Shown piece by piece: positions 6,784 through 10,638 of a stretch of DNA of 64,000 nt (positions within the stretch are counted from its first letter, which is position 1; every line of letters starts with the position of its first letter). The notes under the pieces are model-generated. The model made no database searches. It was not told the DNA's origin and was given only the letters and a program-made list of their open reading frames with translations. A program made the translations under genes and the position numbers. This DNA comes from Candidatus Binatia bacterium (GTDB lineage: Bacteria; Desulfobacterota; Binatia; HRBIN30; BPIQ01), in contig BPIQ01000003.1 of NCBI GenBank assembly GCA_026004195.1, positions 1-64,000 of the forward strand. The letters are read 5' to 3'.

Positions 6784-7420
6784 ATGCTCGGGCGGCTTTT
6801 CCTCTGCTTTGCGGCGGTTTTTCTCTCTGCCCTGGGTCCAGGGGTGCGTTTCCTGCAAGCGCTTTCTCTACGAAGGCTTCGGCCGAGACCGCTGGCAGAA
6901 GCCCGAGCATGTCCTTTCGGCCCTCGGGGTTCGCCCGGGCATGGCCGTGGCGGACCTCGGAGCCGGCACCGGCTACTTCACCGTGCGCTTCGCCGAGGCC
7001 GTGGGTCCCGAGGGCGTCGTCTACGCCGTCGACGTCGACCGGGCGGTACTCGAGTACACGAAAGAGAGGGCCGAGCGCGCAGGCCATCGCAACGTCCGGA
7101 CGGTGCTGGCCGACGCGTCCGACCCGCGACTCCCCCCCGCGAGCGTCGATCTCGTCTTCGTCTGCAACACCTACCACCACCTGAAAAACCGGGAGGAGTA
7201 CTTCCGTGGGGTGAAAAACGCCCTGAGGCCGGACGGTATCCTTGCCGTCGTCGAATACCGGCCCCGAGGAATCCTCCATCGCTGGTTCGGCCACGGAACG
7301 GCGCCCGAGACGATTCGCCGGGAGCTCGAAGCAGCAGGCTACACGCTCGTCCACGAATTTCCCGCCCTTTTGCCGCGTCAGAGTTTTCTCGTCTTCCGGG
7401 TGGCGGGACGCGATCCGTAG
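6784..7420 (+). CDS. Lipoprotein-type SAM methyltransferase, one-base frameshift after the signal peptide
   Basis: The body is a class I methyltransferase: KPEHVLSALGVRPG, SAM motif VADLGAGTGYFTVRFA, YAVDVD, and FVCNTYHHL. It is similar to exported Rossmann methyltransferases that start with a lipobox and a KRFLYEGFGRD(R/E)WQ.PE motif. The signal peptide MLGRLFLCFAAVFLSALGPG lies in the +1 frame relative to the body. Deleting one G from the G-run at 6841-6844 joins them and creates a lipobox-like ...LGPGCVSCKRF. The last residues (GRDP, then TAG) come from half a repeat hairpin, so the natural C-terminus may be altered. An ATG at 6766 is an alternative start. Confidence 0.72.
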
Positions 7421-7630
7421 CACCCGGGCGTGTCCGCCGGAGGGACGTGCTCCGTCGCGTCCGGGGGGCGGGGGAACCGACGCGACCGTTCGCATCCAGG
7501 GATCGGCGGTTGCGTCGCCGACGACCGCGGCCACGCGGAGGGACGCGCTCCGTCGCGTCCGTGGGGGGCGGCGGGGGAAGCGACGCGACCGTTCGCATCC
7601 AGGGATCGGCGGTTGCGTCGCCGACGACGT
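7403..7630. repeat. Hairpin repeat array 1
   Basis: Two complete type-1 hairpins (stem GGACG(C/T)G / CGCGTCC, loop CTCCGT) lie at 7443-7462 and 7541-7560, plus a degenerate half inside the end of the preceding gene. Each hairpin is followed by the same roughly 45-bp spacer (about 7477-7522 and 7580-7627), giving a tandem unit of about 100 bp. The array lies between the convergent ends of two genes. Confidence 0.85.
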
Positions 7631-7636
7631 GCGTCC

Positions 7637-9041
7637 CTAATCCCCTCCCATGAGGGCAAGGAGGAGGTGGGCGGTCGCAGTCACACTGGTGCGGAGCGTG
7701 CCGCGGGGCTCGGGGGCGAAAAGGCTCGAGTGCGTCGAAGGTAACGGCGGACCGCCTTCCCGGGCTTCGCTGGAAGCGCTCGGGCGCGACCGTGCCCACG
7801 CGGAAGAGAAGCCCCGGGACACCGAGAGTGCGGGCGTAAAGCCCGAAATCTTCGCCGCCCATCCGAGCGGGAACCTCGACGACGTTCTCCTCCCCGAGGA
7901 GCCTGCGGAAAAGCCCGGCAGCAGCTTGCGTCAGGTCGGGGTCGTTGTAGGCGGCAGGAGTGTATTCGTCCTTCACGGTAACCTCGGGCGGACGGGGACA
8001 GAGAAAGGCGCGGCACACGTCGCGGGAAAGCTGCTCGATCCCGTCGAGGAGAAGCTTCCGAACCTCGTCCTTGTAGGAGCGAACGGTGAGCTGGAGCCTC
8101 ACCTCGTCGGGGATCACGTTGTGCTTGGAGCCGCCGTGGATGGAGCCCACGGTCACGACCGCCGGGTCGATCGGGTCGACACGCCGGCTCACGAGCGTCT
8201 GGAGCGCCACGACGAGATGCGCGGCGGCCACGATCGGGTCGACCGCCTGATCGGGACGTGCTCCGTGACCACCGCGACCGTAGAGCGTGATATCGACGGA
8301 GTCCACGTTCGCGGCGAACCAGCCCGGCGTGTACCCGACCGATCCCGCGGGAAGGTCGGAGGCTACGTGGATGGCGAGCACCACGTCGGGCTTCGGGAAC
8401 CGTTCGAAAAGGCCGTCCGCGATCATAGCGCGGGCCCCCTTGCCGATCTCTTCGGCCGGCTGGGCCACGACGACGAGCGTGCCCCGCCAGCGATCTCGCA
8501 TCCCGGCGAGAAGGTCGGCGACGGCGAGCAGGTTCGTCACGTGTACGTCGTGACCGCAGGCGTGCATCACGGGCACTTCTTGCCCCGCAGGATCGATGCC
8601 CTTCGCACGGCTGGCATAAGGCAGGCCCGTTTCTTCCTTGACGGGCAGGGCATCCATGTCGCCGCGGAAAAGGACGGTCGGCCCGCTCCCGTTCCGAAGG
8701 ACGCCGACGACGCCGGTCTTCCCCACGCCCTCGGTCACCTCGAAGCCGAGCTTTCGGAGATGCTCGGCCACGCGGCGCGAGGTCCTCCGTTCCTGGAAGG
8801 AAAGCTCGGGGTTGGCGTGGAAGTCCTCGTAGATACGGAGGTAGGCGTCGAGGTTCTTCTCGACCCAGCCTTCCACGTCGTCCGCGAACACCGAGGTGTC
8901 ACGCAGAGAGAAGGCTCGCCCCTCACCCGGCGCACCTCGGTCGTCCCCGGAAACGACTCGGGCACCGCCGACGGCGAGGAGGGCTACCCACAGAATCACC
9001 CACGTCGCACCGCCGAACGATCGTTCCATGGGCGCAACCAA
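7637..9041 (-). CDS. Secreted M20-family amidohydrolase/peptidase, one frameshift near the C-terminus
   Basis: This is an M20D-type metallo-amidohydrolase of the hippurate hydrolase/IAA-amino-acid hydrolase class. After a signal peptide (WVILWVALLAVGGARVVSG) come the motifs FHANPELSFQE, FRGDMDALPV, HACGHDVH, AEEIGKGARAMI, and MGGEDFGLYA, with dimerisation-domain strands between. It should hydrolyse an N-acyl amino acid in the periplasm. Near 7766 the frame slips: VGTVAPERFQ is in one frame, while the expected end GGPPLPSTHSSLFAPEP...LLALMGGD lies in another, ending at 7637. One extra base explains it. Without correction the frame runs on through repeat array 1. Confidence 0.85.
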
Positions 9042-9061: not shown

Positions 9062-9400
9062 GTCAAGGATGTACCCCACGCCCCGGACGCGACGCAGCGC
9101 GTCCCTCCGGCGCGTGCGCCCGGTACCCCGGACGCCGCACGTCCTTGCAAACGCGAGCGACACGTTCATGCCCACCCCGGACGCGACGGAGCGCCACGCT
9201 CTGTCGTGGCCGTGTTCATCCATCCCACGAACGTCCCTTGCCTGGGCGACGGTACGGCCCGCTCGCCCACGCCCCGGACGCGACGGAGGGCCACGCTCTG
9301 TCGTGGCCGTGTTCATCCATCCCACGAACGTCCCTTGCCGGGCGACGGTACGTGCCCGCTCGCCCATCGCCCCGGACGCGACGGAGCGCGGAGGATGTGA
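9062..9400. repeat. Hairpin repeat array 2 with fused elements
   Basis: Type-1 and type-2 hairpins are mixed. Twice the left arm and loop of a type-1 element run straight into a complete type-2 element, GCCACGCTCTGTCGTGGC, so the two are fused at the loop/stem junction. The two fused copies are followed by the same spacer containing ATCCATCCCACGAACGTCCC. The array fills most of the gap between the M20 gene and selD. Confidence 0.8.
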
Positions 9401-9594
9401 AAACATTCCGCCCGCGCCGTCCGGGAGCTGGAATTTCATGGAATTTTCTCGGGCAAAATTCGGGTGACCGGGGATTTTTCACGAGCCGCGTCCCTCCGGG
9501 TGGGTACGACGTGCAGGACGACGCAACCGCCCCGCGGGCTCGACCTTCTCGGCGATTCGGCTTTACCTCCGGCCGTGGTAGACTCCGCGGCTCG

Positions 9595-10638
9595 ATGGAA
9601 GACATTCGCCTCACCACACTCGTGCAGGCCGGCGGTTGAGCCCGTAAGCTCGCCGCGGAGGACCTGGTTCAGGTCCTGAAAAAACTCGGCCCACTCTCGC
9701 ACGCGTGGGTGGACCCCTCGACGGGTCCGCTCGACGACGCCGCTCTCTTGCGCCCTCCGGCAGGCCCCTCCCTCGTTTTCACGGTCGACTTCATCACGCC
9801 CGTCGTCGACGGTCCGGAAGATTTCGGTGCCATCGCGGCCGCGAACGCGCTCAGCGACGTTTACGCCATGGGCGGAGAGCCGAGGGCGGCTCTTGCCGTG
9901 TGCGGTTTTCCGCAGGACAAGCTTCCCGTCTCCATCCTCGAGCGAATCCTGCGGGGAGGACAGGAGAAAGCCGCCGAGGCCGGTTGTGCCATCGTCGGCG
10001 GACACACGATCGCGGACCCCGAGCTCAAGTACGGCCTCTGCGTTCTCGGAATCGTCGACCCCGAGAGAGCGCTCGTACACACCCGGGCCCGGGCCGGTGA
10101 CCTCCTCGTTCTCACGAAACCCCTGGGCTTCGGCGTCGCCGCGCAAGCACTGAAGGCAGGCGAGCTTCCCCCGCCCGAGGTCGCGCAGCTCACCGAGCTC
10201 ATGAAAACACTCAACAAGGACGCGAGGGACGCGGCCCTCGCAGCCGGGGCGCACGCCGCGACGGACGTGACGGGTTTCGGCCTTCTCGGCCACCTGCGGC
10301 ACCTCCTTCTCGGGGCGGGGCTCGCGGCGCGGCTCCGGGCATCGAGCGTCCCCGTGCTGGACTTCGCCCGCGATCTGGCCCGGCGCGGTCTCGTTCCCGG
10401 AGGCACGAAAGCCAACGCCCGTTACGTCGCGGCGGCGTGCCGGTGGGACGCGGGGGTGGACGAAACGCTCGGGACTCTCCTGGTCGACGCGCAAACCTCG
10501 GGCGGGCTTCTCGTCACCGTTCCGCCCGGGCGCACGGACGCCCTTCTCGAGGAACTCGAGCGTAGGGGCGTACCGGCGCGTTCCGTCGTCGGCGAGCTCT
10601 GCGAAGGAGAGCCGGGCTCGATGGACATCCGGCCGTAA
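9595..10638 (+). CDS. selD: Selenide, water dikinase; selenocysteine-containing SelD
   Basis: SelD makes selenophosphate from selenide and ATP, the selenium donor for selenocysteine and selenouridine synthesis. The reading frame starts MEDIRLTTLVQAGG, then an in-frame TGA (9637-9639) stands where SelD proteins carry the catalytic Cys/Sec, followed by ARKLAAEDLVQVLKKL. After it come the family blocks: DDAALL, FTVDFITPVVDGPEDFG, ANALSDVYAMGG, VGGHTIADPELKYGL, TDVTGFGLLGHL, and DAQTSGGLL. The total is 347 residues with Sec at 15. A stem-loop follows the TGA at the right distance. Conventional gene callers would start at 9709 and lose the catalytic end. No selA, selB or selC is visible in this window. 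Confidence 0.92.
9637..9676 (+). promoter_or_regulatory. UGA selenocysteine codon with bacterial SECIS-like hairpin
   Basis: The UGA at 9637-9639 is followed 20 bases later by GGACCTG-GTT-CAGGTCC (9660-9676), a perfect 7-bp stem with a 3-base GUU loop inside the coding sequence. Bacterial SECIS elements sit in this window downstream of the UGA and carry a G/U in the apical loop recognised by SelB. Confidence 0.8.

Follow-up and report, generated by a model that had tools for sequence, protein, structure and literature searches.

How did one half of a palindrome come to be joined, twice and without a gap, to a complete palindrome of another type? The joints lie at 9179-9211 and 9276-9308 of the window, which covers the first 64 kb of contig C3 in a genome of 3.63 Mb that is 98.94% complete. 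The first-pass annotation had described them as the left arm and loop of a type 1 hairpin (T1) running directly into a complete type 2 hairpin (T2). Both junctions are present as described, but the T2 hairpin of the first, copy A, is imperfect.

Hairpin types and the array

Three hairpin types make up the array: T1, GGACGCG-ACGGAG-CGCGTCC; T2, GGCCACG-ACAGAG-CGTGGCC; and T3, GGACCCG-ACAGAG-CGGGTCC. All follow one plan of a 7-bp stem, a loop A-CRGAG and a foot CTCCG, which in the reverse reading becomes a tag CGGAG, a stem, a loop CTCYGT and the second stem arm. Across the first 21 sources of the own genome, the foot accompanied 122/146 T1, 71/76 T2 and 24/27 T3 elements, and it was extended to CTCCGA in 63 of the 71 footed T2. 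In the shown strand, inverted T2 elements were accordingly preceded by TCGGAG in 102/111 cases and by CCGGAG in 7/111, in a scan that demanded GGAG. The T1 loop is complementary to the foot of T1 itself.

The T1 left half, the 13-mer GGACGCGACGGAG, has 392 exact copies genome-wide against one for a reversed control pattern and is thus not a chance word; 345 exact T1 hairpins were counted in the genome. At up to two mismatches, the window held 46 matches to this 13-mer compared to a shuffle mean of 13.4. No Rfam family matched the window above the gathering score. We read the genomic context in 441 kb (the window and 34 further stretches), which cover 229 of the 392 left halves. Scanning these yielded 467 elements, comprising 239 T1, 120 T2, 42 T3 and 66 with unlike or lost arms. 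Among the first 100 T1 places listed, all on C1, arrays were distributed very unevenly: the interval from 45 kb to 931 kb contains just two T1, near 285 kb and 601 kb, and other parts carry dense clusters. One region of C1 also holds five members of a subfamily with the left arm CGTCGCG, which pairs poorly with the T1 right arm (C1:1671782, 1672147, 1673055, 1673304 and 1673541).

Orientation within clusters is strict. T1 faces one way and T2 and T3 the opposite way in 68 of the 70 own-genome clusters holding both, and in each of the two exceptions the deviation comes down to a single element whose type is ambiguous (C1:931838 and C1:950633). Because of this opposite facing, T1(+) and T2(-) present the same core in parallel, CGGAG-N7-CTCYG, in which the T1 loop corresponds to the T2 foot and the T1 foot to the T2 loop. 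We class the array as BIME-like, built from REP-like palindromes.

In the window, the fused units lie between two divergent genes. On the minus strand, a peptidase M20 family gene occupies 6978-9041 (PF01546, E=2.2e-35; mechanical open reading frame limits). On the plus strand, a gene with AIR-synthase domains spans 9595-10638 (PF00586, E=1.5e-27; PF02769, E=3.4e-18); it stays open only when TGA is read as a residue (U), and we infer that it is probably selD with a selenocysteine.

The fused junction

The pattern scan placed an ordinary plus-strand T1 with foot CTCCG and the loop variant ACGCAG at 9085-9109, ahead of the fused copies. In copy A, the T1 left arm and loop span 9179-9191 (+) and the inverted T2 with its foot 9187-9211 (-), with CGGAG at 9187-9191 belonging to both. 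Copy B repeats this layout with the T1 part at 9276-9288 (+), the inverted T2 at 9284-9308 (-) and the shared CGGAG at 9284-9288. At both places, GGACGCGA-CGGAG thus runs without a gap into the inverted T2. The T2 part reads CGCCACG-CTCTGT-CGTGGCC in copy A, where the outermost pair is a C-C mismatch, and forms the perfect hairpin GGCCACG-CTCTGT-CGTGGCC in copy B. Direct repeats and alignment identified the two as adjacent plus-strand tandem units of 97 and 98 nt (9179-9373), matching over 88 nt at 89% identity; they differ at the junction base, in two 1-nt indels and in the last base shown. Immediately downstream lies a further plus-strand T1, of which the left part (9374-9389) is separated from the rest by a miniature element. 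This cut is a different event.

Comparing the consensus elements in parallel identified CGGAG as the sole 5-mer common to T1(+) and T2(-), and the same holds for T1(+) and T3(-). The first base after it is that of T1 in copy A (CGGAG-C-GC) and that of T2 in copy B (CGGAG-G-GC), which locates the exchange inside CGGAGSGC. The first-pass annotation had placed the breakpoint at the loop/stem junction and had proposed recombination or template switching between stem types with the shared loop as homology. CGGAG is indeed the loop of T1, but it is equally the foot of T2, a tag outside the stem, and the T2 loop reads CTCTGT in this orientation. A short-homology version of the proposal therefore fits the sequence, with the homology running from loop to foot rather than loop to loop. 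Overall, that interpretation was half right, and what it described was probably a single event.

An exact search with one free base detected the fused junction nowhere else in the 3.63-Mb genome (matches at 9183 and 9280 only). A stricter scan of own-genome sequence returned three places, both copies in the window plus a variant T1. A relaxed scan gave 8 and 19 hairpin places, among which a T1-like left arm preceded a different hairpin only in the two window copies and at one locus of another genome, L112. Searching 22 other genomes for the fused junction gave six places in four genomes, of which L209, the same place as L112 and with one mismatch in the left arm, is the single possible fusion. 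The remaining matches resemble gene sequence or other variants, and we do not claim recurrence. Eight places returned by the stricter scan in 93 other-genome loci were T1 elements with an accidental second pairing rather than fusions.

Folded as DNA or RNA, the fused unit forms one longer hairpin in which the T1 loop pairs with the T2 loop. As DNA, the two 91-nt stretches folded barely better than shuffled sequences (z = -1.39 and -0.50), and we therefore claim no function for the fused unit.

Origin of the fused units and other breakpoints

Since the junction is unique in the genome and its two copies are adjacent and nearly identical, we read it as one event followed by one duplication. The account we favor, with somewhat better than even confidence, is a single short-homology event at CGGAG. 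In it, the CGGAG of a T1 loop would have met the same pentamer in the foot of the inverted T2 that follows, by replication slippage and deletion or by a template switch, with loss of the right arm and foot of T1 together with the spacer; tandem duplication of the 97-nt product would have come next. The junction, its uniqueness in exact searches, the tandem identity and the position of the homology are observed, while the single event, the order of steps and the enzymatic route are what the model adds. The differing junction base may mean that fusion occurred twice, or once with a subsequent change of the base, the latter being simpler. Aligned with a normal T1-T2-T3 unit (22933), the fused units show a gap of 41 columns, whose placement is that of the aligner. 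The T1 20-mer occurred in none of 57 other relatives (same order or class, none closer than order) and was confined in this comparison to the own genome.

A conversion-like patch could give the same product and is a less likely candidate. Here, the 12 nt between the CGGAG of a T1 and a T2-like tail would be swapped for the core of a neighboring T2 (N7 + CTCTGT) within a 97-nt T1 module, through parallel alignment at CGGAG and CTCYG and with no need to delete a spacer. The similarity of the core at both ends would allow this, a T2(-)-like tail already follows some T1 elements (47/239), and a unit of 97-98 nt equals the common T1-T1 spacing (spacers of 74-79 nt in 33/70). However, the fused unit fits the T2-to-T1 spacing as well (58-66 nt in 66/105; here 64 and 65 nt), as the deletion model predicts, so that length does not discriminate. 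By analogy with REP/IS200-like systems, for which insertion next to a tetranucleotide has been proposed, a single-strand transposition unit might have entered 3' of GGAG in a T1 loop, leaving the fusion as an insertion scar rather than a product of recombination. The position of GGAG on the outer side of the elements would suit such targeting, as would the apparent mobility of GGAG-starting 24-nt units found within open frames of genes in other genomes (3/5 loci translated). We nevertheless consider it improbable: the own genome gave no match to the Y1 transposase model (PF01797), none of 30 Y1-transposase loci in T1-sharing genomes carried a tagged hairpin, and such a joint occurs at one place genome-wide although nearly every T1 loop contains GGAG. 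Elsewhere, a T1-T2 spacer can be as short as 14 nt (C1:42939), which leaves a little room for a chance resemblance, or for two abutting elements that have decayed; this, like an assembly artifact, is very hard to reconcile with a 13-nt exact half and a 20-nt hairpin meeting gaplessly twice, in distinguishable copies on a long contig.

The first-pass annotation had suggested checking whether breakpoints always fall in the loop. Since T1(+) and T2(-) have no other 5-mer in common in parallel, a homology-driven fusion should land in CGGAG in any case, and the test discriminates poorly. Genome-wide departure scans of exact T1 left halves, limited to the first three bases after the loop, returned 14 places: six point changes, two one-base insertions, one IS insertion, one eleven-base deletion, three truncations and fused copy B. 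None of the 14 joined a T3 to a departing T1 left half. In two truncated T1 (C1:1689614 and C2:449887) the departure comes at CGGAG or just beyond it, with no recognizable T2 attached, which is compatible with the loop being a weak point. Other damage extends beyond the loop, such as an 11-nt deletion starting two bases into the right arm (C2:449698) and a right arm diverging after a few bases (C3:21219). By subtraction (392 - 345 exact hairpins - 14), a further 33 T1 diverge later in the right arm; fused copy A is among them, and they were inspected where they lay within the fetched stretches. Script-based sorting of the 66 odd elements gave 19 IS or MITE insertions in the right arm, 17 diverged left arms, 11 lost right arms, eight substitutions, three small indels and eight with two unlike arms. 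The script placed fused copy A under substitutions and copy B under lost right arms.

T2 and T3 have also exchanged arms within the loop interval, in five chimeric elements (two 3/2 and three 2/3) from four loci. Because each arm of T2 is two bases apart from its T3 counterpart, a break is possible only inside CG-ACAGAG-CG, and the chimeras do not argue for loop-specific exchange. Two 1/3 cases require little change because T1 and T3 arms are one base apart, and the sole 1/2 case (C2:561702), with mismatches in both arms and the loop, is doubtful. The suggestion that the fusion hints at how the stem families spread and exchange is weak, as the 392 T1 left halves probably include a single such event, which gives no statistics. 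The reverse joint looked common. CGTGGCCGTGTTCG, the right half of an inverted T2, occurred at up to three mismatches in the 21 nt after the T1 foot in 47/239 T1 versus 0/239 after one composition shuffle each, a count inflated by tandem copies that are not independent. The T1 foot CTCCG is able to stand for the T2 loop CTCYGT. If these T2(-)-like tails are fusion products, the reverse joint is far commoner than the joint first described; they may instead be a shared spacer module.

In the window, a 100-bp plus-strand MITE (9390-9489) interrupts the T1 at 9374 in its right arm, following GGACGCGACGGAGCGC, and the remaining right part, GTCC and the CTCCG foot, resumes at 9490-9498. The left end of the MITE resembles that of the IS1182-family element of the genome, where similar ends bound ~1.65 kb with an IS1182-family transposase (NF033551, E=2e-100, score 337, model cutoff 270), matched through an open reading frame that starts upstream of the element's end. 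Right junctions lay in the same hairpin for 11 of the 19 insertions (seven elements of 1648-1649 bp and four MITEs of 100-103 bp). In the other eight, the right-junction pattern was absent or matched only a later intact hairpin; at one of these, C1:1682566, the right end is visible on reading. Insertion sites include, besides the window MITE, C1:1115137, 1667550 and 1682582, C2:472036, 687741 and 940974, and C3:71560 and 78710. The elements enter the 7-base right arm at one fixed point, after its third base, and 1-3 bp may be duplicated; this marks the hairpins as landing sites for an IS1182-type element. Insertion of IS elements into REPs is on record in the accessible part of PMC1525189, and the element here likewise sits in hairpins. 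As in IS1272, an IS1182-family member that targets palindromes, the transposase is of IS1182 type; however, IS1272 replaces the inverted repeat according to the portion of PMC5678879 available, whereas both hairpin halves flank the insert in the 11/19 cases with a right junction and deletion of the target palindrome was not seen.

The palindrome in other genomes and its relation to REP elements

The fusion itself is a minor, explicable rearrangement, and the family behind it matters more. The exact 25-nt T1 with foot was found in 93 stretches of a species-genome collection (L080-L172), with 80 of the 93 listed and belonging to at least 22 other assemblies. By record titles (Phycisphaerae, Phycisphaerales, Pirellulales, Verrucomicrobia, Kiritimatiellae, Lentisphaerae, Chloroflexi, Poribacteria, Zixibacteria, Calditrichaeota, Desulfobacterales, Syntrophaceae or merely 'bacterium'), these represent at least seven phyla, counting Kiritimatiellae and Lentisphaerae under Verrucomicrobia. 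Stems vary in these loci (GGCCCCG, GGCCACG, GGGCAAC, GGTCACG and others); constancy of the loop and foot is partly built in, as the scans demanded the loop or the loop with a near-foot. Opposite-facing neighbors had different stems in 119/124 pairs and same-facing neighbors the same stem in 58/59 (one mismatch allowed; Fisher P about 1e-40, with many pairs from one Phycisphaerae assembly and not independent). A likely reason is that two copies of one stem, if they faced each other, would give rise to a long and unstable palindrome. Two loci of Candidatus Poribacteria KatS3mg115, L114 and L139, combine T1, T2- and T3-like elements with C-rich leads and spacers like those of the window, and are possibly the nearest named relatives of its array type. 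In viral contigs, three pattern searches gave no match; with the loop base left open as C or T, one IMG/VR contig (L203) showed a T2 with foot.

A literature search found no paper for the T1 20-mer. In anatomy, the family resembles REP/BIME sequences (units Y and Z) and REPINs, as short palindromes at hundreds of copies with an unpaired tag beside the stem. It also shares the array logic of alternating orientation, doublets and regular arrays, which the accessible parts of PMC2817692 and PMC3116915 report for REPs together with hybrid arrays of two REP types. Unlike REPs, which carry the tags GTAG or CGTC according to the excerpted PMC3733652, the elements here are tagged by GGAG, and 'ggag' at word start had no match in the available text of PMC3733652, PMC2817692 and PMC3686654. 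Further differences are the complementarity of T1 loop and foot, the lack of a RAYT match in the own genome and the occurrence of one 25-nt element across at least seven phyla. CGTC-tagged REPs, also described in the available part of PMC3733652, are likewise tagged palindromes found in several phyla without a dedicated transposase, but differ in tag, stem length and loop.

RAYT as the mobilizer was not supported. PF01797 had no match in the own genome (the control matched in 5/14 genomes). The same Y1_Tnp model gave 105 matches in 19/22 of the other genomes, yet none of 30 loci fetched, with up to about 1.5 kb on each side, contained a hairpin with a CTCC foot; one footless hairpin (L194) compared to three in shuffled loci. 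The anatomy of the family and the logic of its arrays are REP/BIME-like, but by the tests made it is not a member of the RAYT-REP family, since it lacks both the GTAG or CGTC tag and an association with a RAYT.

Tentatively, and with confidence short of even, we propose that a GGAG-tagged REP-like superfamily in at least seven phyla spreads by another enzyme than a RAYT, that opposite-facing stems must differ, and that the likeness of loop and foot drives exchange of halves, with new stem combinations arising by recombination in arrays. One 25-nt palindrome in distant phyla, a strict grammar of stem and orientation and no recognized mobilizer together make testable the question of what moves REP-like palindromes without a RAYT. 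Copies of the palindrome in other genomes also occur within genes, whereas the fused-unit array is intergenic. In three of five loci translated (L085, L128 and L132), an open frame runs through a 24-nt unit, GGAG-N7-CTCCGT-N7', and reads it as GGTRSVAS, which suggests, as judged from these frames, insertion of such units; L207 perhaps holds a similar in-gene 24-nt unit.
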